64,000 nucleotides of DNA from Tenggerimyces flavus (GTDB taxonomy: Bacteria > Actinomycetota > Actinomycetes > Propionibacteriales > Actinopolymorphaceae). Below are positions 22,889 through 40,334 of the stretch, piece after piece. Each line of letters begins with the position of its first letter. Within the stretch, counting starts at the first letter, position 1. Both the position numbers and the translations under genes were made by a program. The notes beneath the pieces are model-generated. The model saw nothing but the letters and a program-made list of their open reading frames with translations. It ran no database searches and was not told the origin of the DNA. The stretch lies in contig NZ_JAFBCM010000001.1 in NCBI RefSeq assembly GCF_016907715.1, positions 7,479,420 to 7,543,419 on the forward strand, in the 5' to 3' direction.

Positions 22889-24969
22889 ATGACGAAGCCG
22901 ACCGCGAAGAACGCCGCCGCCCGCCCGGTTCCGCTCGCGCGACCGGCCAATCTGGCGCCTGCCCAAGGGGGCATCGGGCGCATCCCGATCGTCGACATCC
23001 AGCCTGTCGTCAACTGTGGGCAGTATCCCGCCAAGGCCGTCGTCGGCGAGTCGTTCACCGTCACAGCGACGGTCTTCCGCGAGGGCCACGACGCCCTCGG
23101 TGCGAACGTCGTCGCAAGAGGCCCCGGCAGGCAGACGCTCGGCTGGATCCCGATGACCCTGCAGGAGCCCGGGCTCGGCATCTGGACCGCCGAGATCAGA
23201 CCGAACGCCGAAGGCGCATGGACGTTCCAGGTCGAGGCCTGGTCCGACCCCGTCGCCACCTGGCGGCATGCCGCCGAGCTGAAGATCCCGGCCGGCGTCG
23301 ACGTCGACCTCATGCTGGTCGAGGGAACGTACGTCCTCGAGGCCGCCGCCAGGAATCTCCCGCGCGGCAAGGCCGAAGAGCGCCAGGTGATCCGGGACGC
23401 GATCAAGGCACTCAAAGACAAGTCACGACCGGCGGAGGTACGTCTCGCCGCGGCGACCACCCCCGAGATCCACCACGTGCTCGACCAGTTCCCGCTCCGC
23501 GAGCTGGTCACCGGCAGCGAGCAGTACTCCCTCTGGGTCGACCGCGATCGCGCCCTCTATGGCAGCTGGTACGAGTTCTTCCCCCGTTCCGAGGGCGCCT
23601 ACTACGACGAGGACCAGGGCCGCTGGGTCTCCGGCACGTTCAAGGACGCCGCCGAACGCCTCCCCGCCATCGCGAACATGGGCTTCGACGTCGTCTACAT
23701 CCCGCCCGTCCACCCGATCGGCACGACCAACCGCAAGGGGCGCAACAACAGCACCGAGGCCGGCCACGACGACCCCGGAACGCCCTGGGGCATCGGCTCG
23801 GAGGACGGCGGCCACGACGCCGTCCACCCCGACCTCGGCACGATCGCGGACTTCGACGCGTTCGTGACGAGGGCGAACGAGCTCGGAATGGAGATCGCCC
23901 TCGACATCGCGCTGCAGGCGAGCCCCGACCACCCCTGGGCGAAGGCGCACCCCGAGTGGTTCACGACCAGGGCAGACGGCACGATCGCGTACGCGGAGAA
24001 CCCGCCGAAGAAGTACCAGGACATCTACCCGCTGAACTTCGACAACGATCCCGCCGGCATCTACTCCGAGATCCTGCGCGTCATCTACCACTGGATCGAG
24101 CACGGCGTCCGCATCTTCCGCGTCGACAACCCGCACACGAAGCCGGTCGAGTTCTGGGAGTGGCTGCTCGCCAAGGTGCGCCGCACCGACCCCGACGTTC
24201 TCTTCCTGAGCGAGGCGTTCACCAAGCCTCCGATGATGCACACGCTCGCGAAGGTCGGCTTCCACCAGTCGTACACGTACTTCACCTGGCGCAACACCAA
24301 GCCGGAGATCGAGGAGTACCTCACCGAACTCGTCAACGACACGAGCCACTTCCTCCGGCCCAACTTCTTCACCAACACCCAGGACATCCTCACCGCGTAC
24401 CTGCAGTACGGCGGCCCGGCCGCGTTCAAGATCCGCGCCGCGCTCGCCGCGACCACCTCCCCCACGTACGGCGTCTACTCCGGCTTCGAGCTGTACGAGC
24501 ACGTCGCCGTGCGACCGGGCAGCGAGGAGTACCTCGACTCCGAGAAGTACCAGTACCGCCCACGCGACTGGGCGGCGTACGAGCCGGGCGGCGCCAAGGA
24601 GGGCCAGTCGCTCGCGCCGTACCTCACCAAGCTGAACGAGATCCGCCGACGACACCCGGCGCTGCAACGCCTCAGAAACCTCCGATTCCACTACATTCCG
24701 GACGACAGCATGCTCGTCTTCTCCAAACGCGAGCAGCTGCCCGACGGACGGGACGACACCGTGCTCGTCGTGCTCAACCTCGACCCCCACGGGACCCGTG
24801 AGTCGACTGTGTCGTTGAACATGCCGGACCTCGGCATGGACTGGCACGACCAGTTCGTCGTTGTCGACGAGCTGACCGGAGACACCTGGCGCTGGGGCCA
24901 GCACAACTACGTTCGGCTCGACCCTGGGTACGAGCCGGCCCACATCCTCACAGTTCGGCGGGGTAGCGC

Positions 24970-24973
<4 letters not shown>
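22889..24973 (+). CDS. glgE: Maltosyltransferase GlgE
   Basis: 694 residues, GH13_3. It transfers maltosyl units from alpha-maltose-1-phosphate onto alpha-1,4-glucan chains. Seen: an N-terminal beta-sandwich ([18 protein letters not shown] near 30), the catalytic barrel with GlgE-specific YVEFFPR-like [11 protein letters not shown] and FKDAAERLP, nucleophile Asp413 (RVDNPHTKP) and acid/base Glu442 (LSEAFTKP), the 29-residue spacing matching characterised GlgE. First gene of the operon; its stop overlaps treS by 4 bp (ATGA). The 170-bp upstream region is non-coding and contains TGGATAA as a possible -10 element. Confidence 0.96.
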
Positions 24974-26682
<1,709 letters not shown>

Positions 26683-26741
26683 GGCGTAGGGCGCGGGCGA
26701 GGGGTCTGAACGATGCAGGGACGTTCGAGGGAAGGACTTAC

Positions 26742-28211
26742 ATGGTGAGACCTAACCAGCAGGCCGGAATCCACGACTTCCTCGAACGGCAGAGATGGTT
26801 CGCGGGCAAGGGTAGGACCTTCACCATCGAGGGGATCCATCCGCTGGAATGGCTTTCTCCACCAGGGGTTTGGCCTGCCGTGCGCGTCGAGCTCGTCACG
26901 CTGCGGTACGAGACGGGCGAGGGTGACGAGGGCGGCAGGACCGACGTCTACCAGCTGCCGCTGGCGTACCGGGACCGGCCGGCATCGGAGTCGCTCGCGC
27001 ACGCCTTCGTCGGCGAGTGGGAGCACCCCGAGCTGGACGCGACGGTGTGGGCGTACGACGCGTTGCACGACAAGGAGGCGACGTCGTACTGGCTGCGCGG
27101 GCTGCTCGACGAGCGGGCCGAGGAGGACTTCTCGTTCCACCGTACGGGCGACGTCGGGATCTCCGGTGACGAGCAGTCGCTGGTGCTGACGGCCGAGCAG
27201 AGCAACACGTCGCTGGTGTTCGACGAGGCCGCGCTGCTCAAGGTGTTCCGGCGCGTGCACCACGGCCGCAACCCCGACATCGTCGTGCACGAGGCCTTCG
27301 CCAGCGGCGGCGGACGCAACGTGGCCAGGCTGTTCGGCTGGCTCGAGGCCGAGTGGCCGGTCGGCGACGGCGGCGCGAAGGTCGACCGCGGCGACCTCGG
27401 CATGTTCAGCGACTTCTTCCGTACGGCGACCGACGGCTGGGAGCTCGCGATCACCAGCGTGCGCGACCTGTACGCCGAGGCCGACCTGCACGCGGACGAG
27501 GTCGGCGGCGACTTCGCGGCGGAGTCGTACCGGCTCGGCGCGACCACCGCGGAGGTGCACACCGACCTCGCGCGGCTGCTGCAGACGGCGGTGTGGGGGC
27601 CGATCGAGCTCGCGAAGGTCACGCACGGCATGTACGGGCGGCTCGACCTCGCGACATCGCTGGTGCCGGAGCTCGCGGCGTACCACGAGGCGTTGCGGTC
27701 GGCGTACGACGACCTGGCGAACTACCCGGATCCCGTTCCTGTGCAGCGGATTCACGGCGACCTGCATCTCGGGCAGACGATGCGGACGGTCGCCGGCTGG
27801 CGGCTGATCGACTTCGAAGGCGAGCCGGCCCGGGCGTTCGCCGAGCGCGACGCGCTCGACTCCCCCGTCCGCGACGTCGCCGGCATGCTGCGCTCGTTCG
27901 ACTACGCGGCTCAGCACCTGCTGACCGGCACCGAGCGCCCCGACGCGCTGCGCGGTCCGGGGTCGGAGGACCACGGGCAGCTGGAGTACCGGGCGCAGGA
28001 GTGGTCGGACCGCAACCGGGCGGCGTTCTGCGAGGGGTACGCGTCGGTGGCGGGTGCCGATCTGCGCGACCAGGCCGTGCTGATGCGTGCGTACGAGACC
28101 GACAAGGCGGTGTACGAGGTCGTGTACGAGTCGCGAACCCGCCCGGACTGGGTGAAGATCCCGCTCGCTGCCGTGCGTCGGCTGGCGGGCGTGGATCAGG
28201 AGGCGACATGA
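26742..28211 (+). CDS. mak: Maltokinase Mak (Pep2)
   Basis: 489 residues. It phosphorylates maltose to alpha-maltose-1-phosphate, the GlgE donor, using ATP. It has a eukaryotic-kinase-like (aminoglycoside phosphotransferase) fold: N-terminal cap ([13 protein letters not shown] near residue 13), catalytic loop IHGDLHLGQ with Asp340 and metal-binding Asp357 in [14 protein letters not shown] lies before the ATG at 26742. It lies between treS and glgB and overlaps glgB by 4 bp (ATGA), consistent with coupled synthesis and with a TreS-Mak complex. Confidence 0.95.
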
Positions 28212-30397
28212 CCGACACGACCGAGACGCAGAACCTCGCTCGTCGCGACGAGCTCGCGCGGCTCATCGGCGGCAGCCACCACAACCCGCACGACCTGCTC
28301 GGGCCGCACGTGGTGGGCGACGCCGTCGAGATCCGCGTGCTGCGGCCGATGGCGGAGCGGGTCACGGTCGTGCTCGGGCCGACGCGGGTCGACCTCGCGC
28401 ACGAGTACGAAGGTGTGTGGCTCGGTGCGGTTCCGGGCAGTGCCGTGCCGGACTATCGGCTGGAGATCGCCTACCCCGGTGGGCATGTGGTGGCGACGGA
28501 CGATCCGTACCGGTTCCTGCCGACGCTCGGCGAGATCGACCTGCACCTGATCGGCGAGGGCCGGCACGAGCAGCTGTGGCGCGTTCTCGGCTCGCACGTG
28601 CGGCGGTACGACACGCTGTCCGGGCCGGTGACGGGCACGTCGTTCGCGGTGTGGGCGCCGAATGCCCAAGGAGTACGGCTGGTTGGCGATTTCAACCACT
28701 GGGACGGGCGCGGCAACCCGATGCGCTCGATGGGCTCCAGCGGCGTGTGGGAGATCTTCGTTCCGGACGTCGGCCAGGGTGCTCGGTACAAGTTCGAGAT
28801 CCTCGGCGGCGACGGCGCGTGGCGGCAGAAGGCCGACCCGATGGCGTTCTACGCCGAGACTCCCCCGGCCACCGCGTCGGTGGTCTTCGACTCGTCGTAC
28901 ACGTGGAACGACTCGTCCTGGTTGGAGAAACGGAGCGCCACGGCTCCGCACTCCGAGCCGATGTCGGTGTACGAGGTCCATCTCGGCTCGTGGCGGCGCG
29001 GTCGTACGTACCGCGAGCTCGCCGACGAGTTGGTGCCGTACGTTCAGGAGCTGGGCTTCACCCATGTCGAGCTGCTGCCGGTGATGGAGCACCCGTTCGG
29101 CGGCTCGTGGGGCTACCAGGTGTCGTCGTACTTCGCGCCGACCGCACGACACGGCGACCCGGACGATTTCCGTTACCTGGTTGACGCTTTGCACCAGGCG
29201 GGCATCGGTGTGATGGTCGACTGGGTGCCGGCGCACTTCCCGAAGGACGAGTGGGCGCTGGCCCGGTTCGACGGGACGCCGTTGTACGAGCACGCGGATC
29301 CGCGGCGCGGCGAGCACCCGGACTGGGGCACGCTGGTGTTCGACTTCGGACGTACCGAGGTGCGGAACTTCCTGGTCGCGAACGCCCTGTTCTGGTTGGA
29401 AGAGTTCCACATCGACGGGCTGCGCGTGGACGCGGTGGCGTCGATGCTGTACCTCGACTACTCGCGGCGCGAGGGCGAGTGGACGCCGAACGAGTACGGC
29501 GGCCGCGAGAACCTCGACGCGGTGGCGTTCCTGCAGGAGATGAACGCGACCTGCTACCGGCGCGTGCCCGGAATCATCACAGTGGCTGAGGAGTCCACGG
29601 CGTGGCCGGGCGTGACGCGGCCAGCGCATCTGGGCGGGCTCGGCTTCGGCTTCAAGTGGAACATGGGCTGGATGCACGACTCGCTCGCGTACCTGAGCCG
29701 GGACCCGATCCACCGGCAGTATCACCATCACCAGATGACGTTCTCGATGATGTACGCGTACTCCGAGAACTACATGCTGCCGATCTCGCATGACGAGGTG
29801 GTGCACGGCAAGGGCTCGTTGCTGCGGAAGATGCCGGGCGACCGGTGGCGGCAGCTGGCGAACCTGCGGGCGTACCTGGCGTTCATGTTCGCGCATCCGG
29901 GGAAGCAGCTGCTCTTCATGGGTTCGGAGTTCGCCCAGGAGTCGGAGTGGGCGGAGTCGCGGGAGCTGGACTGGTGGTTGCTGGACCTGCCGGATCACCG
30001 GGGTGCGTACGACCTCGTACGCGACCTGAACGCGGTGTATCGGGCGTCGCCTTCGCTGTGGACCGGTGACTCGTCGCCGGAGGGGTTCGCGTGGATCGAC
30101 GCCAACGACGCGTCGAACAACGTATTCTCGTTCCTGCGCTTCGATCCTTCGGGGACGGAGGCGCTGGCGTGCGTGGCGAACTTCGCCGCGCTGCCGCACG
30201 AGGACTATCGCGTGGGGCTGCCGTTCGCGGGAACGTGGCACGAGGTGATCAACACCGACTCCTCGCGCTACGCCGGCTCGGGCGTGGACAACGGCGGCGC
30301 GGTCGAGGCGGCGCCGACCGAGTGGCACGGCCGCCCGGCGTCGGCTCGGCTGGTGTTGCCGCCGTTGGGCACGGTCTGGCTGCGCTACACGCCTTGA
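28208..30397 (+). CDS. glgB: 1,4-alpha-glucan branching enzyme GlgB
   Basis: 729 residues, GH13_9. It introduces alpha-1,6 branches into the glucan extended by GlgE. N-terminal beta-domains ([10 protein letters not shown] near 25; CBM48 [20 protein letters not shown] near 143) precede the barrel with nucleophile Asp408 ([12 protein letters not shown]) and acid/base Glu461 (VAEESTAWP), the 53-residue spacing of E. coli Glg[11 protein letters not shown] carries the third conserved Asp. The start at 28208 overlaps the mak stop (ATGA). Last gene of the operon. No glgA or glgM is present in the window. Confidence 0.96.
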
Positions 30398-32158: not shown

Positions 32159-32821
32159 ATGAGTAAGCGAACCGGCATCATCGTTGCTGCCGTCATCACC
32201 GGAGTTGCCAGCGTCGTGGCGGGGATCGTCGGCGCCAAGACCGACAACTTCCACGTCGTCGTCGGCCCACTTCCCGACCGAACCGTGACGGTGACCACGA
32301 CGGTCACCGCACCACCGCTACCCGCACCCACGGTCACGGTCACCGTCCCCGGCGACGCACCCCTCGTGGATGAGGTGACGGACCCCGGCATTGGATCGAT
32401 GATGCTCGCCGATCTGAGAGGTAGCGGCGGGGAGTTCGGCACCGGCGTGGTGAAAATCGACGGCGTCACCTATCCGGACACCGTGCACACCGCCCTGTCA
32501 CCATGCGGGGCCGGCGATCTCGATCGATCGACGTGGACCTGGGAGGGCGACGTCGCGCGGCTCGTGGGCAGGATCGGCCTCACCGACGAGTCGTTCACCG
32601 ACGGCCTCGCCTACCTCGCCGTCTACGAGGGGAACGGCGCGAGCAAGCTGCTCAAGAGATTCCCCGCCACCACGGACGGGCTCACCGATGTCGACGTGCC
32701 GCTGGATGGGATCTACACGATGACGATTGTTGCCGAGGCCGACAACAGCACGAAGCCGGGATGTTCGGATGTGACGCTCGCGTTCCTGGACGCGAAGCTG
32801 GAGCGGCCCGACTCAGGATGA
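32159..32821 (+). CDS. Membrane-anchored protein with NPCBM-like domain
   Basis: 220 residues. An N-terminal membrane anchor (GIIVAAVITGVASVVAGIVG, residues 5-24) is followed by a Thr/Val/Pro-rich linker (TVTVTTTVTAPPLPAPTVTV, about 50-70) and an extracellular beta-domain (TYPDTVHTALSPC, then YLAVYEGNG and MTIVAEADNS) that resembles the NPCBM carbohydrate-binding fold. The ATG at 32159 follows AGAGGGGGA; an upstream ATG lacks a site. Two cysteines in the domain could form a disulfide. Surface protein of unknown ligand; the domain call is tentative. Convergent with the MerR gene, 9-bp overlap. Confidence 0.72.
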   Translation: MSKRTGIIVAAVITGVASVVAGIVGAKTDNFHVVVGPLPDRTVTVTTTVTAPPLPAPTVTVTVPGDAPLVDEVTDPGIGSMMLADLRGSGGEFGTGVVKIDGVTYPDTVHTALSPCGAGDLDRSTWTWEGDVARLVGRIGLTDESFTDGLAYLAVYEGNGASKLLKRFPATTDGLTDVDVPLDGIYTMTIVAEADNSTKPGCSDVTLAFLDAKLERPDSG

Positions 32822-33193
32822 GCTGAGCAGCTCACAGGTCTCGAAACTCATGCACCCACAGGCCAGACAGTCCGCCACTGCAGTACGGAGCTGCTGGAAT
32901 TCGGCGATGTGGCGGTCGAGCTCGGGCAGCTTCCGTTCGGCCAGCGCCCGCCAGCGGCGGGTGGTGCCGGGCGTCGTGTCGCTGGCGAGGAACGCGCCGA
33001 TCTCGCGCAGCGTGAAGCCGGCCCGCTGGGTCATCCGGATCAGCGCCAACCGGCGCAGCACCGTCGGCGGGTAGACGCGGCGGCCGGCCACCTGGTCGGC
33101 GACCGGGAGCAGGCCGATGCGCTCGTAGTAGCGCAACGTCGACGGACGGAGGCCGGTACGCGACGCGACCTCGGCGATGTCCAGCTGTCTCAT
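32813..33193 (-). CDS. SoxR-like MerR-family regulator
   Basis: 126 residues. MerR winged helix-turn-helix at the N-terminus (DIAEVASRTGLRPSTLRYYE, residues 5-24), a dimerisation helix, then Cys109, Cys112, Cys114 and Cys120 (C-x2-C-x-C-x5-C in CLACGCMSFETC), exactly the SoxR [2Fe-2S] ligand spacing. It is therefore probably a redox-cycling-compound sensor. The ATG at 33193 follows GAGG. The divergent promoter has a palindrome in a 19-bp -35/-10 spacer, the classical MerR-activated arrangement, driving an MFS exporter. In actinobacteria SoxR regulons often include exporters for redox-active metabolites. Confidence 0.9.
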   Translation of the reverse strand: MRQLDIAEVASRTGLRPSTLRYYERIGLLPVADQVAGRRVYPPTVLRRLALIRMTQRAGFTLREIGAFLASDTTPGTTRRWRALAERKLPELDRHIAEFQQLRTAVADCLACGCMSFETCELLSSS

Positions 33194-33206
33194 GGCCCTG
33201 CCTCGG

Positions 33207-33237
33207 TTGACTTGAAGCACGCTTCAAGCACCATTCT
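33207..33237 (+). promoter_or_regulatory. MerR/SoxR-type promoter of the MFS gene
   Basis: -35 TTGACT (33207-33212) and -10 CATTCT (33232-33237) are separated by 19 bp. The spacer contains the perfect 18-bp palindrome CTTGAAGC-AC-GCTTCAAG (33211-33228). The ATG at 33244 begins 6 nt after the -10, predicting a leaderless mRNA. Confidence 0.78.
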
Positions 33238-33243
33238 CAGCCC

Positions 33244-34467
33244 ATGCCGCTCTCCGACTACCGCACCGTCCTGGCGACGAGGCCGTTCCGGACGCTCGCC
33301 GTCGCGATGGGGGTGTCCGATCTCGGGGACGGCATGTCCCTCGTCGTCATCCCGCTCGTCGCGATCGGCGTCGCAGAAGGACAAGACGCCGCGCTCGTCA
33401 TCGGCGGCGCCGTCGCTGCGTACTCGCTCCCGGGCGTGCTCGGCGTCCTCCTGCTCGGCAGGTGGCTACGCAGGCTCCGCGCCACCACGGTCCTGATCGC
33501 GGACAGCGCACTCCGTGCCACCATGCTCGCCGCCGTCGCCGCGCTGTGGGCCACCGGCAACCTCACCCCCGCCGGGCTCATCGCCCTCTGCGCGGCCTCG
33601 TCGGTGCTGCACGCGTGGGGTTCGGCGGGCAAGTTCACGCTGATCGCCGACGACCTTCCCCACGACCGGCGCATCACCGGGAACGCGCTCGTCACCTCCG
33701 TCCAGTCCCTCTCGATCATCATCGGCCCGAGCATCGCCGGGCTGCTCGCCCACGTGCTCAGCCTCGCCTGGCTGGTCGCGTTCGACGCACTCACGTTCAC
33801 GCTGCTGGGGTTCGTCGCCCTCCACCGCCACCGCCGCCAGCAGTCACCCGTACCCGACAAGACGGCGCCTGGCGGTTGGCGTGCCATCCGCGCCCAGCCC
33901 GCGCTGCTCGGGCTGCTCGCGATGACCTGGGTCTTCTACGCGCTGTACGGACCCGTCAACGTCGCGCTCCCCCTCCACGCCACCGGCGGGAACGTCGAGC
34001 AGGCCGGTCTGCTCGGGATCTACTGGACCGTGTTCGGTATCGGCGCCGTGGTCGGCAGTCTCGGCGCCAGCCTCGTCCGGGAGAACGCGAGACGGCCGGC
34101 CATGCTTGTCATCGTCGCCGCCTGGGGTCTCGCCCTCCTCCCGTTTGGCCTGGGCCTGCCGACACCGGCCGAGATCGCCTGCTTCGCGATCGCCGGGCTC
34201 GTCTGGGGACCGTTCCCCGCGATCTCCCTCACCGTCACCCAGTCGCTCAGCCCGCCGGGAGCGGTCACGTCGGTCCTCGCCGCCCGGACGGCGATCCTCC
34301 TCACCGCCACCCCGGTGGGCACAGCGCTCGGCGGCCCGCTCACCGAGGCAGCGAAGGACCCGACTCGCGTTCTGGTGGGCTCCGGCCTCGCCACGCTCGC
34401 GCTCGCCGCCCTCGTCGCCGGAGTCGTGGCCGTCAGGCGGCGGTCTTCTGGATCGATTTTGCGCTGA
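33244..34467 (+). CDS. MFS transporter, probable drug exporter
   Basis: 407 residues with about 12 membrane helices, of the MFS_1/MFS_3 type (DLGDGMSLVVIPLVAIGVA near residue 26; WAMTW-like GLLAMTWVFYALYGPVNVAL near 225). It is likely to export small molecules by proton antiport. It is controlled from the divergent SoxR-like promoter, from which the ATG would be the first transcribed codon; no ribosome-binding site is present, consistent with a leaderless message. Substrate unknown; redox-active compounds are suggested by the regulator. Confidence 0.92.
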   Translation: MPLSDYRTVLATRPFRTLAVAMGVSDLGDGMSLVVIPLVAIGVAEGQDAALVIGGAVAAYSLPGVLGVLLLGRWLRRLRATTVLIADSALRATMLAAVAALWATGNLTPAGLIALCAASSVLHAWGSAGKFTLIADDLPHDRRITGNALVTSVQSLSIIIGPSIAGLLAHVLSLAWLVAFDALTFTLLGFVALHRHRRQQSPVPDKTAPGGWRAIRAQPALLGLLAMTWVFYALYGPVNVALPLHATGGNVEQAGLLGIYWTVFGIGAVVGSLGASLVRENARRPAMLVIVAAWGLALLPFGLGLPTPAEIACFAIAGLVWGPFPAISLTVTQSLSPPGAVTSVLAARTAILLTATPVGTALGGPLTEAAKDPTRVLVGSGLATLALAALVAGVVAVRRRSSGSILR

Positions 34468-34490
34468 CCCCTTGCACGCCTCCGAGAGGC

Positions 34491-34519
34491 TCTGTATCGT
34501 TCTAGAAGATCGATACAGA
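34491..34519. promoter_or_regulatory. Palindromic operator upstream of lacI-like gene
   Basis: TCTGTATCG (34491-34499) and CGATACAGA (34511-34519) are perfect 9-bp inverted repeats with an 11-bp spacer that contains TTCTAGAA. It lies 16 bp before the LacI-family start and is probably autoregulatory. Confidence 0.65.
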
Positions 34520-34535
34520 AGAAGGAGGTGCTCAG

Positions 34536-35612
34536 ATGCCCAGAGTCACGCTGCAGACCATCGCCGACGCCCTCGGGGTGTCGCGCAGCACCGTCTCCAA
34601 CGCCTACAACAAGCCCGACCAGCTCACCCAGGAGCTGCGCGAACGGATCCTCGCCGAGGCCACCAAGCTCGGCTACGCAGGCCCGGACGCCGCCGCGCGA
34701 AGCCTGCGCAGCGGCAAGACGGGCGCGATCGGGCTGCTGTTCACCGAGTCGCTGCCCTACGCGTTCTCCGACCCGTACGCGGTCGGGTTCCTCACCGGCC
34801 TCGCCGAGGTCGCCGAACGCCATGGGACGAGCCTGTTGCTGGTCCCGGTCGACACCGGGCTCGGCGGCACCCCCGAGGCCGACCTCGAGCGGGCCGTACG
34901 CCAAGCCGTCGTCGACGGGTTCTGCCTCTACTGCGTCGACGAAAGCCACCCGGCCGTCGACATCATCCGCGCCCGCGGCCTGCCGATGGTCGCGACCTAT
35001 CCGCCGAAGGACCCCCACCTCAGGTCCGTGGGCATCGACGACGAGGCGGCCGCGTTCAAGGCCGGCGAACACCTGGCGCGGCTCGGGCACGAACGGATCG
35101 GCGTCGTCATGGACCGCTGGTTCGGGATCCGCCCGTTCCCGCCGCTCGACCTCGAGGGTCCGACGCCCATCCAGCAGGTCATCGACCTCGCGCCCGGCGA
35201 AGAGTCGACGTTCCGGCTGCGCGGTTACCGCAAGGCACTCCCCGACGCCGACATCATGGTCACCACCGCGGAACGCAACAGCCGGGCGGCCGGAGCGGTG
35301 GCCGTCGAGGAGCTGATCGACCAGCGCTGTCGTTCCACCGCGATCCTCGCCGTCAGCGACGTGATCGCGTTCGGCGTCATCGACGCACTTCGACAACGGG
35401 GGCTCACGCCCGGACAAGATCTCTCCGTGGTCGGTTTCGACGACGTACCCCAGGCGGCGGAGTTCGGGCTCACCACGATCCGCCAGCCGATGGTCGATCG
35501 CGGCCGGATGGTCGGGCGGATGCTGCTCGAGCCGGACACGATCGCCGAACGTCAGGTGCGGCTCCCGACGGAGCTGGTCGTACGGACCAGCACCGGGCCG
35601 CGCCCGTCCTGA
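34536..35612 (+). CDS. LacI-family transcriptional regulator
   Basis: 358 residues. Helix-turn-helix LQTIADALGVSRSTVSNAYN (5-24) and hinge, then a sugar-binding-protein-like domain ending in a Type-1 PBP pattern (LSVVGFDDVPQAAEFGLTTI near 295). The ATG at 34536 follows GGAGGTG. Its own promoter region holds a 9+9-bp palindrome. No sugar genes adjoin it: upstream is the MFS gene, downstream two tiny MWP proteins, so its target is either itself, those small genes, or distant. Effector unknown. Confidence 0.92.
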   Translation: MPRVTLQTIADALGVSRSTVSNAYNKPDQLTQELRERILAEATKLGYAGPDAAARSLRSGKTGAIGLLFTESLPYAFSDPYAVGFLTGLAEVAERHGTSLLLVPVDTGLGGTPEADLERAVRQAVVDGFCLYCVDESHPAVDIIRARGLPMVATYPPKDPHLRSVGIDDEAAAFKAGEHLARLGHERIGVVMDRWFGIRPFPPLDLEGPTPIQQVIDLAPGEESTFRLRGYRKALPDADIMVTTAERNSRAAGAVAVEELIDQRCRSTAILAVSDVIAFGVIDALRQRGLTPGQDLSVVGFDDVPQAAEFGLTTIRQPMVDRGRMVGRMLLEPDTIAERQVRLPTELVVRTSTGPRPS

Positions 35613-35661
35613 ACCACCTCTTCCAACACACACACGCGAAACATCCCCTTAGGAGCCAACT

Positions 35662-35856
35662 ATGTGGCCCGTTGCTGCCAATCTCGCTGTCGACCTCACC
35701 AAGCTGGACGCCCACTCGGCCCTGCCGCGCGCGCCCAAGCACCCACTTCCGCCGCCGAAGGAGACCAGCCGGCAGAAGCTCGGCCGGTCCCTCCGCGAGA
35801 CCGCCCAGCGCCTCCAGCGCATCGCCGACCGCGTCGACGCCCCTGCTGCCTGCTGA
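35662..35856 (+). CDS. Small MWP protein 1 (64 aa)
   Basis: 64 residues: starts MWPVAANLAVDL and has a Pro-rich middle (PRAPKHPLPPPKE) and a C-terminal basic amphipathic helix (SLRETAQRLQRIADRVD). AGGAG lies 7 nt before the ATG. It shares its N-terminal MWPxxANxA and C-terminal SLRETxxRLxRxADR with the gene at 36079, so the two are paralogues in tandem, which strongly supports both being real. No signal peptide, cysteine pair or known family is visible, apart from one C-terminal Cys. Function unknown. It follows a LacI gene by 49 bp. Confidence 0.7.
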   Translation: MWPVAANLAVDLTKLDAHSALPRAPKHPLPPPKETSRQKLGRSLRETAQRLQRIADRVDAPAAC

Positions 35857-35953
35857 CATTTGGTAACACCACTATTTACGCGGAGTTCACGGGAGCCGGA
35901 AGAAAGCAGTTGAGTCCGTGGTTATGGTGATAGTGACTCGAGAGGGAAGGAAC

Positions 35954-35965
35954 ATGTGTAACTGA
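35954..35965 (+). other. Tiny upstream ORF (Met-Cys-Asn-stop) in the leader of MWP protein 2
   Basis: GAGGGAAGG precedes ATG TGT AAC TGA, a well-placed ribosome-binding site for a three-codon ORF. A hairpin follows 15 nt later (CACAGG 35980-35985, CCTGTG 35992-35997). Such short Cys-containing leader ORFs regulate some actinobacterial genes by attenuation; here this is inference. Confidence 0.35.
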
Positions 35966-36078
35966 GCGTCGCGTGCCGCCACAGGTCCGGGCCTGTGAGG
36001 TGGCGCACACCCTCGAGTCCTTCGCTCGACGACGAGCGCGCATCCATCAAACACCCTGCTGTACGAAAGAGAACTGCC

Positions 36079-36291
36079 ATGTGGCCTGCCATCGCGAACT
36101 TCGCCAACGACCCTCGACGGGAGGAGCCGATGATCGTGCACCGCGCTGCACTGTCTGACGACTTCGCCCTGATGTCGGACGACTTGGAGGTCGCGCCGCG
36201 ACGGGGCCTGTTCGTCCAGTCGCTGCGTGAGACCGGCACCCGCCTGGTCCGCCTTGCCGACCGGCTCGAGGGGTCCAAGTCCGCCGCCTGA
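36079..36291 (+). CDS. Small MWP protein 2 (70 aa)
   Basis: 70 residues from the ATG at 36079, chosen by alignment with the 35662 paralogue: MWPAIANFAND at the start and SLRETGTRLVRLADRLE at the end. The middle is different and acidic (ALSDDFALMSDDLEV). GAGAACTG before the start is a weak binding site. A 220-nt gap separates the paralogues and contains a possible leader ORF and hairpin. A strong hairpin terminator (36353-36386) follows. No family recognised. Confidence 0.7.
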   Translation: MWPAIANFANDPRREEPMIVHRAALSDDFALMSDDLEVAPRRGLFVQSLRETGTRLVRLADRLEGSKSAA

Positions 36292-36352
36292 TCTACCCAT
36301 ACCCGTAAGGGGATTCGCGTTCCCGGGATCGGCGCGAACCTACCTAGACCGA

Positions 36353-36386
36353 GGGCGCCGAGGTGACCTAGCTCACCTCGGCGCCC
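36353..36386. terminator. Bidirectional hairpin terminator
   Basis: 14-bp perfect arms GGGCGCCGAGGTGA (36353-36366) and TCACCTCGGCGCCC (36373-36386), loop of 6 nt, followed by TT. It lies between the convergent MWP protein 2 gene and the tetR-like gene, 2 bp from the latter's stop. Confidence 0.85.
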
Positions 36387-36388
36387 TT

Positions 36389-36997
36389 CTACGTTGTCGA
36401 TGACGTTGTCGATGTGGTGAGGATCACGGCCAGGTTGTCGATGTAGGAGTCCATCGCCGCACGTGATTTCGGCAACCGCTGTGGGCTGGTCAGCGCGAGG
36501 TAGGTGTGGCCGAGGTACGTCGTGTACGCGATCGACGCACGACGTCGCGCCTCTGCCCGACTGAAACCGAGGTCGGCGAACATCTTCGCCAGATAGCTCA
36601 TACGCCGCTCGGTGACCCGTTCCAGCACCGGTCCCACCAGCGGATCGTCCGCCGAGGAGAGCAACGCCAGCTCCACCGCGTCGCGGCGTACGTGGCTCAA
36701 TACCGCGTGAAACAAGGCGCGCAGCCGCCGCTCCGGATCGGACTCGGCCTCCACCGCGGTGATCACCGCCTCGGTGTGCTCCTGCTCCCACCGTTCCAAG
36801 GTGGCCCGCAGCAACGCCTCCCGGTTCGGGAAGTGCCAGTACGCGCTGCCCTTGGTCGCCCCTAGCCGGGCGGCCAGCGGCTCGACCGCGACAGCGGCGA
36901 TTCCGCCTCGCCCCAGCGCCGAGAGCGCGGCAGCCGTCCAGTCGTCCTTGCTCAGCCGGGGCTTCTTGGCGTGGCCACCATCACGTTCCTTCGGCAT
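36389..36997 (-). CDS. TetR-family transcriptional regulator
   Basis: 202 residues. Helix-turn-helix near residues 18-60 (LSALGRGGIAAVAVEPLAAR, then GATKGSAYWHFPNREALL). The C-terminal domain ends in a Thr/Ser-rich tail. The GGAGG upstream of the ATG at 36997 is only 1 nt away, so translation may instead be leaderless: TAGCGT lies 8 nt upstream. Two related palindromes (37001-37020, 37023-37044) fill the gap to the divergent SRPBCC gene and are the likely operators, so it probably represses itself and that gene. Confidence 0.9.
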   Translation of the reverse strand: MPKERDGGHAKKPRLSKDDWTAAALSALGRGGIAAVAVEPLAARLGATKGSAYWHFPNREALLRATLERWEQEHTEAVITAVEAESDPERRLRALFHAVLSHVRRDAVELALLSSADDPLVGPVLERVTERRMSYLAKMFADLGFSRAEARRRASIAYTTYLGHTYLALTSPQRLPKSRAAMDSYIDNLAVILTTSTTSSTT

Positions 36998-37000
36998 GCC

Positions 37001-37044
37001 TCCGTACGCTAGCGTATGGACGGACCATACGGCACCGTATGGTC
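37001..37044. promoter_or_regulatory. Twin TetR operators
   Basis: Two adjacent palindromes: TCCGTACGCTAGCGTATGGA (37001-37020, one mismatched pair) and GACCATACGGCACCGTATGGTC (37023-37044, perfect 10-bp arms). Both end in the CCrTACG/CGTATGG half-site. Located between divergent tetR and SRPBCC genes. Confidence 0.75.
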
Positions 37045-37060
37045 AGCGTGAGGAGGGCGC

Positions 37061-37567
37061 ATGTTCAGCAACGTCCACACCAGGGTCATCGCCGCGCCGC
37101 GTCCCGAGCTCGGCAAGCTCCTCGAACGGATCACCGAACCGGACAGCCCGAGCTGGCCGTCCCGGCACTGGCCGCCGATGGTGCTCGACAACGGCCTCGA
37201 GGTCGGCTCCGCCGGTGGGCACGGGCCGATCCGCTACTACGTCACCGACCACCAGCCGGGCAGCCGGATCGAGTTCACCTTCGACGACGTCGACCTGCCC
37301 GGGACGCACGCGCTGGAGCTGCACGACGGCCCGACGCCGGGGACGACGCTCGTACGGCACATCCTGATCGGGTACGACTGCGGGCTGCGGAACCGGCTGA
37401 CCTGGGAGGTCGGCCTCCGCTGGCTGCACGACGCGCTCATCGAGCAGCTCTTCGACCGCCTCGCCACCGTCGCCGGCAAGCCACCGGCCCGGCCCTTGCG
37501 CTGGTCGCCATGGGTGAAGGCCCTGCGCCTGCTCTACGCCCGCAACCTCGTCCCTCAGCCGGCGTAG
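37061..37567 (+). CDS. SRPBCC-family protein
   Basis: 168 residues with the START/SRPBCC-like pattern: N-terminal VHTRVIAAPRPELGKLLERI, then IRYYVTDHQPGSRIEFTFDD, and a long C-terminal helix (WLHDALIEQLFDRLATVAG). Such proteins have a deep hydrophobic pocket for lipids, polyketides or aromatic ligands; some are cyclases or stress proteins. The ATG at 37061 follows GGAGG. Divergent from, and probably repressed by, the TetR gene through the twin operators. Ligand unknown. Confidence 0.85.
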   Translation: MFSNVHTRVIAAPRPELGKLLERITEPDSPSWPSRHWPPMVLDNGLEVGSAGGHGPIRYYVTDHQPGSRIEFTFDDVDLPGTHALELHDGPTPGTTLVRHILIGYDCGLRNRLTWEVGLRWLHDALIEQLFDRLATVAGKPPARPLRWSPWVKALRLLYARNLVPQPA

Positions 37568-37596
37568 CCAGCTCAGCCCGGCGGCACAGCCCCGGC

Positions 37597-37659
37597 GGCC
37601 AATGATCATGTTTACATGATCATTGGCCCCTTTACGTGGGGTAGACGCCAGGTGGAGTG
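37597..37659. repeat. 63-bp intergenic repeat with hairpin, copy 1
   Basis: 15-bp perfect arms (37597-37611, 37614-37628) containing TGATCATG, then CCCTTTACGTGGGGT. The whole 63 bp matches 45602-45664 with three mismatches. It lies between the convergent SRPBCC and GH84 genes, so it probably acts as a bidirectional terminator. A second partial copy of its right end (CGCCAGGTAGAGCG) follows at about 37667. Confidence 0.8.
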
Positions 37660-37733
37660 CCTCTTCGCCAGGTAGAGCGCGGCTTGATCTACAGAGGTCG
37701 AGCTCGTCGCCGAGCGCATGATCGCCGCGATCG

Positions 37734-40334
37734 TCACGGGGTGTACCGGGGTACGATCTCGGCGACTCGCGGAGGCGGACCACCGGCGGCCCAGGCGATC
37801 CGGATAGCGTCCGCCTCTCCCCCAGCGGCCAGGTCGGTGAACGTCCCTCCCAGCGCGCCGATCGGCACCCACTCCCCCGCCCGCCGAACGGACACCTCGC
37901 CCGATCCGGCGGCGCCGGTCTCCTGCAGGATCGTCACGCTGTCGAGCTCCCGGGCGGCCGACAGGGTCACCACGAGCTCGTCGCCCGCGACCGGTGCGGA
38001 CGCGGCGACGTACGACGTGGCGACGTCGTCGTCCGCCGCCGAACGCAGCGCGGATCCTGCAGCGGGCAAGGGCGTTCCGGACACCGTGAGCCTGGTCGCG
38101 TCGAGGACGTCGACCGCGAACTCGCGGACCACCAACCAGTACGGGTCGTTGTTCGCCAGGGCTCGGTAGCGCACGTACCGCGCTGTCGTCCCCGCCGGCA
38201 CCGTGGCGCGGACCTCGGCGGTCGTTCCGCGCGCGAGCTCCGTCCACGCGGTGCCGTTGGTCGAGTGCTCGAGCACCCCGTTCCCGATGAAGTCGCTCGG
38301 GCTGCCCGGCTTGCCCATCAGTACCGCGATCCCGCCGATCGGCCGGGCACGACCGAGGTCGATGCCGACCGAGTCGCCGGTCTGCGGCGCGTTGTCGCTC
38401 CAGTAGAACGTGTCCAGGCTGCCGTCCAGCATCCGCGCCGGAACGTTGTCGGCGTAGGTTCCCATCGAGGTCGTCCCCACCGCGCGGTCGACGCCGACGC
38501 CCACCGACGCGTCGAACCGGCGGGCGGACTCGGCGACGAACGTGTCGACCACGCCGTCCCCGACCAGCGGCGCAACGTTGGCGTGCGGCAGGCGAGTGTC
38601 GCGCAATGCTCTTGCCTGTTTGACGAAACCCGACGCGAGCTGCCGTTGCGTCCATGCCGCCGAAGGATCGGCGGCGGCGAGCCCGTCGAGAGCGACCTCC
38701 ATCGCGCGAGCCCACAGCTTCGTGGCGGAGAGCCACGCGTCCGCCTCGGCGACGAAATCCGGGGCCAGCGCACCGCGGAGCACGTCCGGCGCCTCCACCA
38801 GCGCCCGCACGACGGGCCGCAGTCCCGCCACGGCCTCCGCGCGGCGGCCGGCGTTCCACGCTGACCAGAACGCCGCCACCTCGGCAGACAACTGGGGCGC
38901 GCGGTCGAGGTGCAGCGTTCCCTCGTACCAGTTGAGATCCGCGAACGTCCGTAGCGCCGAGAGCACCTCGGGATCGCCACCGGCGCGCTCGGCGAGCGCG
39001 CGTTCCCACGAGGCGGTGGCGTCGTACGACACGTCGTCCCAGCCGTACTCGCCGAACGAGTACAGGGCGATCGTGCTCAGCACCGGCTGGTTCATCGGGT
39101 TCGAGATCACGCCGGCGACCTCGTTCGACAGCCCTGGCTCACGCCCCGTGTACGGACCGAGCGGGATGCGGCCGGCGATGTAGTCGTTGACCGGATAGTT
39201 GTCCCACACGAGGATCTGGTGGCCGAAGACCGCCCGTGCCTGGGCGGCCTGCGCGCGGGTGATGTCGTGCGGGATCACGGCGGTCCCAGTCCAGTGCACG
39301 ACGACATCGGGATCGAGCAGGTCGCGAATCGCCTTCTTGTACGGGGATTCCGTCACGTTGTAGTACTCGGTCGGCACCATCTGCAGCGGCGCCTCATCGC
39401 CCTTCCCGGCGACCCATTGCTGGACGACGTTCAACAGCTCGGACTGGGCGCGACCGGCCGCTCCACCGCCCGTTCCGTAGCGCTCGCGGTCGGCGTCGCA
39501 GTGCCAGGTCGAGTAGTCGATGTCGTCGAGCGGAACGTTGAACGCGCGTACGCCGAGCTCGTACAGCGACTCGAACTTCGCCAACAGCGCTTGGCGATCC
39601 GCCTCCAGCGTGTAGCAGATCGACAGCCCAGGCGACAGCGCGAACGTGAAGTCGACGTGGTTCGCGATCGCCCGGTCGACCAGCGCGCCGAGCTGCGCCA
39701 GCTTGTCCGCCGGGTACGGATCGCGCCACAGCTCGCGGTGGTACGGGTCGTCCTTCGGCGCGTACTCGAAGGTGTTCATCCGGTGCGAGCCGAGATAGTC
39801 GAGCAGCCCGAGCCGCTCGCTCTGCGTCCACGGCGTTCCGTAGAAGCCCTCGATCAGGCCGCGGTACCGCATCCGCGGCTCCTCGCGGATCGTCGCCGCG
39901 CGCACCTGCGGGCGGCCGTTGCGCGGCTCGATCAGCGTGCGCAGCTCGTGCGCCGCATAGAACGTGCCGTCCGCGTCGACGCCGTCGAGCACGATGTCCT
40001 CGCCACCGGCGGCGAGCACGAAGCCCTCGGCCGCGAGCCCGTCGGCGTTCGGAACGCCGAGCTCGGCGAGCGCGGCATCGCCGTCGCCCAGCCAGACCGT
40101 CACATGCGTGGGCGGCCGCTGGCCGTCGGTCAGCACGACGCGACGCACACCGGCGGCGGTGAGCGCGGCGCGGACGACCTGCTCGGCGGCAGGATCGGTG
40201 TCCGCGGCACGGACGAGGCCCACGACCGGCGTGAGGCGTACGTCGTCGGACGCGGCTTGCGCGGCGGGGAGCGGCCCCAGCAGCAGGCAGCCGGCGGCGA
40301 AGACGGCGGCAGCGGTGCGAACGACACGTGACAT
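37734..40334 (-). CDS. Secreted GH84 beta-N-acetylhexosaminidase
   Basis: 866 residues. A Sec signal peptide (hydrophobic AAAVFAAGCLLLG, cleavage after AQA at about 27) precedes a GH84/GH20-type N-terminal alpha/beta domain (about 30-140), the GH84 barrel (YRGLIEGFYGTPWT near 155; catalytic Asp pair 270-271 in VPLDDIDY) and helical and C-terminal F5/8-type (CBM32-like) modules (about 610-760 and 760-860). Family members release terminal beta-GlcNAc from glycans by substrate-assisted catalysis and include NagH, O-GlcNAcase and bacterial mucin or hyaluronan enzymes. Acts outside the cell. No GlcNAc uptake genes adjoin it. Confidence 0.94.
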   Translation of the reverse strand: MSRVVRTAAAVFAAGCLLLGPLPAAQAASDDVRLTPVVGLVRAADTDPAAEQVVRAALTAAGVRRVVLTDGQRPPTHVTVWLGDGDAALAELGVPNADGLAAEGFVLAAGGEDIVLDGVDADGTFYAAHELRTLIEPRNGRPQVRAATIREEPRMRYRGLIEGFYGTPWTQSERLGLLDYLGSHRMNTFEYAPKDDPYHRELWRDPYPADKLAQLGALVDRAIANHVDFTFALSPGLSICYTLEADRQALLAKFESLYELGVRAFNVPLDDIDYSTWHCDADRERYGTGGGAAGRAQSELLNVVQQWVAGKGDEAPLQMVPTEYYNVTESPYKKAIRDLLDPDVVVHWTGTAVIPHDITRAQAAQARAVFGHQILVWDNYPVNDYIAGRIPLGPYTGREPGLSNEVAGVISNPMNQPVLSTIALYSFGEYGWDDVSYDATASWERALAERAGGDPEVLSALRTFADLNWYEGTLHLDRAPQLSAEVAAFWSAWNAGRRAEAVAGLRPVVRALVEAPDVLRGALAPDFVAEADAWLSATKLWARAMEVALDGLAAADPSAAWTQRQLASGFVKQARALRDTRLPHANVAPLVGDGVVDTFVAESARRFDASVGVGVDRAVGTTSMGTYADNVPARMLDGSLDTFYWSDNAPQTGDSVGIDLGRARPIGGIAVLMGKPGSPSDFIGNGVLEHSTNGTAWTELARGTTAEVRATVPAGTTARYVRYRALANNDPYWLVVREFAVDVLDATRLTVSGTPLPAAGSALRSAADDDVATSYVAASAPVAGDELVVTLSAARELDSVTILQETGAAGSGEVSVRRAGEWVPIGALGGTFTDLAAGGEADAIRIAWAAGGPPPRVAEIVPRYTP

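Follow-up and report, generated by a model that had tools for sequence, protein, structure and literature searches.

LacI-family proteins are textbook regulators of sugar genes, and the ligand of most of them is a sugar or a nucleoside. SgrT, a 43-residue protein encoded within the small RNA SgrS and not in a LacI operon, may serve as an analogy for the proteins described below, since it is produced when cells respond to a sugar and works through binding to a larger protein. In Escherichia coli, SgrT regulates the glucose transporter PtsG (as introduced in PMC3901232). For LacI-family regulators, the sections of Ravcheev et al. (2014; PMC4052901) cited here describe sites that are mostly even palindromes with a central CG, core palindromes of 16–22 bp, and intersite peaks at 13, 22, and 32. 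Autoregulation is given there for 72%, 26 regulons have a single target gene, and 96% of the LacI groups with assigned pathways are carbohydrate regulators.

The locus described here lies in a window of 64,000 nucleotides (the whole stretch of DNA that was analysed) from Tenggerimyces flavus. It resembles the local autoregulated LacI regulators in the cited sections of PMC4052901 in having a palindromic site at the regulator's own promoter, and differs from the carbohydrate regulons given there in that an uncharacterised small protein is the one companion retained from genus to genus. The regulator gene (34536..35612, plus strand) codes for 358 residues. Both Pfam domains, LacI (PF00356, 32 bits, cut-off 27) and Peripla_BP_3 (PF13377, 73.9 bits, cut-off 26.5), score above their cut-offs, and the combination of a helix-turn-helix with a periplasmic-binding-protein-like domain identifies the product, at the sequence level, as a LacI-family transcription factor. 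Upstream there is an MFS gene, and divergent to the latter is a SoxR/MerR-like regulator (32813–33220; match below the curated cut-off). Two small genes follow on the same strand: ORF1 (35662..35856, 64 residues), which starts 49 nt past the LacI stop, and ORF2 (36079..36291, 70 residues), which starts 222 nt past ORF1 and is next in line after LacI and ORF1.

A sequence-only reading of this DNA had described the two as tandem paralogues with MWP starts and SLRET-type C-termini, and they are present as described. The N-termini are MWPVAANLA (ORF1) and MWPAIANFA (ORF2), and the C-terminal sequences are SLRETAQRLQRIADR and SLRETGTRLVRLADR, respectively. None of 5000 shuffles reached the score of the real pair in either local alignment (62 vs. 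a shuffled maximum of 47) or global alignment (56 vs. 22), and by this measure ORF1 and ORF2 are real paralogues. The list of open reading frames nests ORF2 in a longer, GTG-started frame (35995–36291); the ATG start at 36079 is supported because all six family homologues begin at MWP. Residues 19–25 of ORF1 read SALPRAP (codons 35716..35736, plus strand), which is the core motif of the LacI-linked relatives (alignments A2, A4, and A6; motif-ORF control). This SA[LRM]PxAP core was not found in ORF2, which is homologous through its overall sequence only. Having MWP in common with ORF2 and SALPxAP in common with the genus g5 (see below), ORF1 is, as judged from its sequence, the LacI-linked form.

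The gap between the two ORFs (35857–36078) contains, by eye, an ATG ORF of three codons that has a good ribosome site, and also a strong local hairpin. It folds no better than shuffles (z 0.16), and a structured RNA in the gap was rejected on these grounds. A search of Rfam over positions 33000–39000 (E up to 1) returned one sub-threshold gyrA match, located elsewhere than the gap. A perfect inverted repeat with 14-nt arms and a 6-nt loop, also found by eye, lies 3' of ORF2 (36353..36386) and is a possible transcript end; the terminator scan reported none at this place, and no T run follows the repeat.

When the window LacI was searched against 97 genomes of the order, matches were obtained in 37. 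Thirty LacI loci were returned, one of them the window and 29 from the neighbouring genus g5, which is probably Kribbella; a further g5 locus (G050:C25) was left out of the 29-locus set, and the g5 genome G042 gave no LacI match. Orthologues in g5 and g77 show 52–57% identity to the window LacI. Each of the 29 g5 loci has an ORF of 64–74 residues that starts 13–132 nt downstream of LacI, and SALP[ND]AP occurs in every one of these ORFs. The divergent upstream gene, which we take to be cutC-like, is common to all 29 loci and the downstream gene to 27. Because these other neighbours are conserved too, the 29 loci are not independent and the adjacency within g5 is partly plain genus synteny. Eight further LacI relatives (L170–L177), for which ORFs of any type were listed downstream only and the motif rule was run over the whole loci, include one with a weakly similar ORF (L174) and seven with none.

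More distant relatives were found with profile A2 (37 sequences, among them ORF1 itself, E 1.9e-23), which was built from the small proteins only; searched against 394 genomes of the class, it matched in 20 genomes at E ≤ 0.01. The best four foreign matches (G577, G338, G060, and G363; E 3.6e-9 to 2.0e-4) all lie beside LacI genes, three downstream and one upstream. Six of the 15 weaker matches were translated, and no LacI link was apparent in the flanks seen. A match of profile A1 in genome G014 (E 0.0067) sits just downstream of a LacI gene. A second LacI query matched in 18 of 148 genomes: five loci (L202–L206) have an upstream ORF with SA[LRM]PxAP beside LacI, L207 has an ORF by position that lacks the motif, L208 (the same locus as L182) has a downstream ORF, and ten other loci have no such ORF. 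L174 shares with L207 a LacI-adjacent ORF devoid of SA[LRM]PxAP. Relatives thus occur beside LacI, downstream or upstream, in five further genome families, which at the sequence level is independent support for the LacI link. The small-ORF label clusters on a LacI tree of 42 rows, in which g5 is represented by 11 of its 29 rows, L207 carries a label based on position, and L174 one based on weak similarity: 5 changes are needed vs. 13.9 when shuffled, and none of 500 shuffles was as low. The upstream genes of the g5 and g77 loci are other than the MFS gene of the window. Between genera, LacI plus the small ORF is what persists among the loci compared, while the surroundings that were read differ. 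This agrees with the earlier suggestion that the adjacent LacI is meaningful. Of the two outcomes that the same reading had named as speaking against it, no homologues elsewhere and no ribosome occupancy, the former did not occur: homologues outside the window locus were found by profile search. In another LacI branch (L173, L176, and L201, from three genomes of three families), the gene directly following LacI is presumably arylamine N-acetyltransferase-like, and GTTAATCGATTAAC is found before LacI.

On this sequence evidence, ORF1 and ORF2 are members of an actinobacterial family that is not yet described, with proteins of 57–74 residues that are often encoded beside one LacI subgroup. SA[LRM]PxAP is present in 29 of 29 g5 members, ORF1, two g77 forms, L181, L182, and L202–L206, and is absent from ORF2 and six stand-alone relatives. 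The picture of constant ends flanking a free middle is not borne out, since the middle of ORF1 holds SALPRAP, which is conserved among LacI-linked relatives. What these members have in common is the motif and the C-terminal helix, so that only one of the two supposedly constant ends recurs; their N-terminus is variable, and among the aligned members MWP is restricted to Actinopolymorphaceae. As a control, other retrieved DNA, amounting to 763 kb of which 611 kb is distinct, was scanned for small ORFs with a ribosome site. Only ORF1 satisfied the strict rule [SA]A[LRM]PxAP, and a looser rule, which is how L202–L204 and L206 were first found, gave 17 matches (12 distinct peptides, ORF1 included). 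Profile comparison by hhalign scored A4 (g5) at 31.1 against A1 (the MWP group), with a maximum of 18.3 in 200 column shuffles, and at 46.8 against A3 (the upstream group), with a shuffled maximum of 14.4, also from 200 shuffles. The latter score is partly circular because four of the six A3 members came from the motif; L205 was found by position and accepted on its motif, and only L181 came from the profile.

The substitutions in the small ORFs follow a protein-coding pattern, as shown by sequence comparison. In the 29 g5 ORFs, differences at codon positions 1, 2, and 3 number 6509, 4355, and 9761. Overall pN/pS is 0.51 (thirds: 0.22, 0.77, and 0.65), the middle and C-terminal thirds evolving fast; for six Actinopolymorphaceae genes, pN/pS is 0.60. 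AlphaFold2, run with four sequences, predicts for ORF2 one confident C-terminal helix (residues 42–69, codons 36202..36285, plus strand; mean pLDDT 60.8, pTM 0.31), with block means of pLDDT of 68, 89, and 72 for residues 41–50, 51–60, and 61–70 and of 48 to 51 elsewhere. The Eisenberg moment is 0.83 for ORF1 and 0.72 for ORF2. An amphipathic C-terminal helix is thus predicted for both, from the modelled structure in the case of ORF2 and from the Eisenberg moment in the case of ORF1. Of the 29 g5 members, 28 have a cysteine among their last 12 residues; in several other members one is found at the C-terminus or close to it. No hydrophobic or trans-membrane stretch was found in the seven members computed (best 19-residue Kyte-Doolittle mean 0.80 or less), and recognition of the protein ends by a membrane, which had been one of the earlier suggestions, is unlikely.

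Six of the seven other Actinopolymorphaceae genomes, among them Actinopolymorpha pittospori (G007) and A. rutila (G006), hold one relative each, all beginning with MWP. With ORF2 as sole query, 29 of 57 genomes had a match at E ≤ 1, most of which are noise. Each of five g3 genomes has a clear single copy (E 1.3e-5 to 0.0024), and the match in G001 is split into two pieces of a single ORF (E 0.07 and 0.42). Profile A1 matched in seven of the eight family genomes, the window genome included, at E ≤ 2e-21, these sequences being part of A1 by construction; in G005 it gave nothing better than E 0.13. Outside the family, A1 found nothing convincing in either 293 genomes of the order (best foreign match E 6.3e-4) or 394 genomes of the class (best foreign match E 0.0017). 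Eight weak A1 matches were translated; L073 led to a LacI pair and the rest looked like chance.

The stand-alone MWP gene (L035–L040) is the nearest relative of ORF2: against the A. pittospori protein, the local Z is 20.3 for ORF2 and 15.9 for ORF1. It differs from ORF2 in being single-copy, in having neither an adjacent LacI nor an operator that could be found, and in its position directly downstream of, and convergent with, glgB of a glgE-treS-maltokinase-glgB cluster, the name glgE being our assignment. The window contains a probable GlgE-pathway cluster (22889–30397), as do all six MWP-bearing relatives; it shares its strand with ORF1 and ORF2 and lies some 5 kb upstream. Here, treS and glgB were confirmed with NCBIfam, the maltokinase match is below cut-off, and no NCBIfam match was obtained for glgE. 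A general association with glgB was rejected: 19 regions downstream of glgB, taken from genomes other than the MWP-bearing ones (G005 plus 18 more), when scanned with the C-terminal motif pattern, held no member, and the association is thus limited to six family genomes. In genus g3 (L006–L010), a conserved inverted repeat, GTCACCA-N6-TGGTGAC, is found about 150 bp before the stand-alone gene and is possibly a site for another regulator.

Upstream of the window LacI, a -35-like TTGCAC (34472..34477, plus strand) was found by eye 17 bp before TATCGT (34495–34500). TTGCAC or TTGCGC recurs at the -35-like place in most aligned loci; the consensus promoter scan gave no promoter-like site at its threshold. 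The -10 region is overlapped by a candidate palindromic operator, CTGTATCG-N11-CGATACAG (34492..34518), which spans 27 bp in the window and has a 40-bp form in all 29 g5 and both g77 loci, where each LacI-promoter site (29/29 and 2/2) is within one mismatch. Its two CG centres are 13 bp apart, which is one of the intersite peaks given in the cited sections of PMC4052901. The exact pattern, with no mismatch, occurs in 20 of 77 genomes. It lies at the LacI promoter in 18, namely the window genome and 17 of 24 g5 genomes; among the seven g5 genomes that lack the exact pattern, five have a site with one mismatch at LacI. Exact sites away from LacI are found in G007 and G073, and G039 has one in addition to its LacI site. 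The site in A. pittospori (L221; G007:C1:623569-623591) is a perfect CTGTATCG...CGATACAG palindrome before a gene that we take to be GntR-like, with no LacI seen beside it. When two mismatches to the 20-base core were allowed in 12 genomes, one site each in G000 and G039 was added to the LacI promoters, and no site was found in G001–G007. The operator search was strict, and the regulon could be larger if weaker sites exist elsewhere.

In nine other LacI loci that carry the ORF, paired 14-bp palindromes precede whichever gene comes first in the unit, spaced by 26 bp in seven loci and by 25 and 33 bp in the others. These second-clade sites (CTGTACCGGTACAG) fit the description that the cited sections of PMC4052901 give for most LacI sites, being even palindromes with CG at the centre; the core palindrome of 14 bp compares with 16–22 bp there, and the 26-bp spacing is not among the peaks that these sections report. 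The same scan found pairs with other spacings in 4 of 12 LacI loci that lack the ORF, and one such locus, L209, has good operator-like sites nonetheless. In the downstream group, only the window scored among 32 loci, as the sites of g5 and g77 are too degenerate to pass the threshold. Pairs were present in 4 of 3000 random stretches, all with a spacing of 13; LacI loci were kept in this pool, so that these may be copies of the window site. A terminator was found between LacI and the small ORF in none of the 29 g5 loci and after the small ORF in seven of them. In the alignments, the palindrome that covers the promoter of the unit is conserved, and LacI plus the small protein looks like a self-contained, autoregulated unit.

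The family could not be assigned to anything described. For ORF1 and ORF2, Pfam and NCBIfam gave nothing above curated cut-offs. Weak matches that we take as chance were obtained with Pfam for single members out of 37 (Herpes_UL49_2, E 0.0032; Luciferase, E 0.022), with NCBIfam for ORF2 (T3SS_XAC0095, E 0.074), and with PHROGs among 17 members (best quoted E 0.056, for ORF1). PADLOC gave no match for 17 members (E up to 1), and PDB nothing below E 1.7. The sequence-only reading had likewise named no described family with this signature, and the best that the libraries tried have to set against it is the Pfam match at E 0.0032 in one of 37 members. Phages and plasmids, searched with one member as query, gave nothing. 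Profile A4 was used on viral contigs, where 25 stretches have the pattern and none encodes a relative; a viral or plasmid origin was thus rejected. In the open literature, screened by title and start of the abstract, no description of a LacI plus small-protein pair was found; subscription papers mostly lie outside this scope.

We favour the reading, with about an even chance of its being correct, that the small protein is an effector and the output of an autoregulated LacI switch. LacI would repress its own promoter, and binding of a small ligand, probably a sugar or nucleoside, would lead to joint production of LacI and the small protein. The pair may thus form a switch that senses a sugar, with a protein of about 60 to 75 residues as its main other product; as hardly any second operator was found, we infer that this protein is the main output. 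It would act in trans, with the C-terminal amphipathic helix docking on a partner protein and the linker and SALPxAP providing a second contact. ORF2 would have arisen by duplication within the family, followed by loss of SALPxAP. ORF2 orthologues persist in Actinopolymorpha without an adjacent LacI, which suggests that the helix-based activity needs no LacI in cis. This persistence also bears on the main rival, in which the small protein is a dedicated accessory of LacI (co-repressor, anti-repressor, or stabiliser) that docks via SALPxAP, resulting in a closed protein-repressor circuit. We consider it unlikely, while noting that the motif tracks LacI linkage through all the members listed above and is absent from ORF2 and the stand-alone relatives, that gene order is free and LacI adjacency is kept, and that the operator precedes the whole unit. 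However, not only do stand-alone relatives persist, but a LacI match at 1e-60 is missing from six of the other seven family genomes (for a limited number of candidates scored per genome), related LacI genes occur without the ORF, and L207 and L174 are LacI-adjacent without the motif; moreover, the motif and LacI may have been lost together, as one event within one clade. More doubtful is a fuller scenario in which LacI responds to its own small protein, or cooperates with it, via SALPxAP docking, as a two-gene circuit in several actinobacterial families from which a LacI-free, ORF2-type effector later escaped to a place beside alpha-glucan (treS-glgB) genes.

The remaining explanations fare worse. 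That the ORFs are short, lie beside a regulator, and are separated by a gap that looks structured by eye would fit a cis-acting role, in which transcript or leader-type translation matters and the protein does not. The third-position excess of substitutions and the pN/pS of 0.22 in the N-terminal third argue for the protein, the ORF is downstream of LacI in g5 and g77 or stands alone, and neither the folding of the gap nor Rfam offers a structure; we thus regard this role as highly improbable. A leader peptide in the strict sense, always upstream and with unimportant sequence, was rejected on the downstream position in g5 and g77 and on the coding constraint. Scarcely to be expected is a peptide that is secreted or bound to the membrane, such as a modified precursor peptide, to which the MWP N-terminus and the cysteine near the C-terminus could point: a membrane peptide was rejected on the lack of a hydrophobic stretch in seven members, the neighbours compared vary between genera, and those identified among them include no shared maturation enzyme. 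Least probable of all is a toxin–antitoxin-like pair with LacI as the regulator partner. A two-gene unit with its own operator has that layout, but the small gene persists on its own without the partner, PADLOC, Pfam, and NCBIfam are negative within the scope given above, and no relative was found in phages or plasmids with one member as query or in viral contigs with profile A4. A type II system was rejected, as only weak single-member matches, and no recognisable toxin or antitoxin family, were found.

The favoured reading, a small-protein effector as the output of a LacI switch, and its main rival concern the same finding: a LacI subgroup whose sole companion between genera is a small protein, encoded on either side of LacI and unrecognised by the libraries used. 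The locus thus offers a compact and testable case of a small protein that would be the output or the partner of a LacI switch, and it yields a search profile for an unlisted family of small ORFs.
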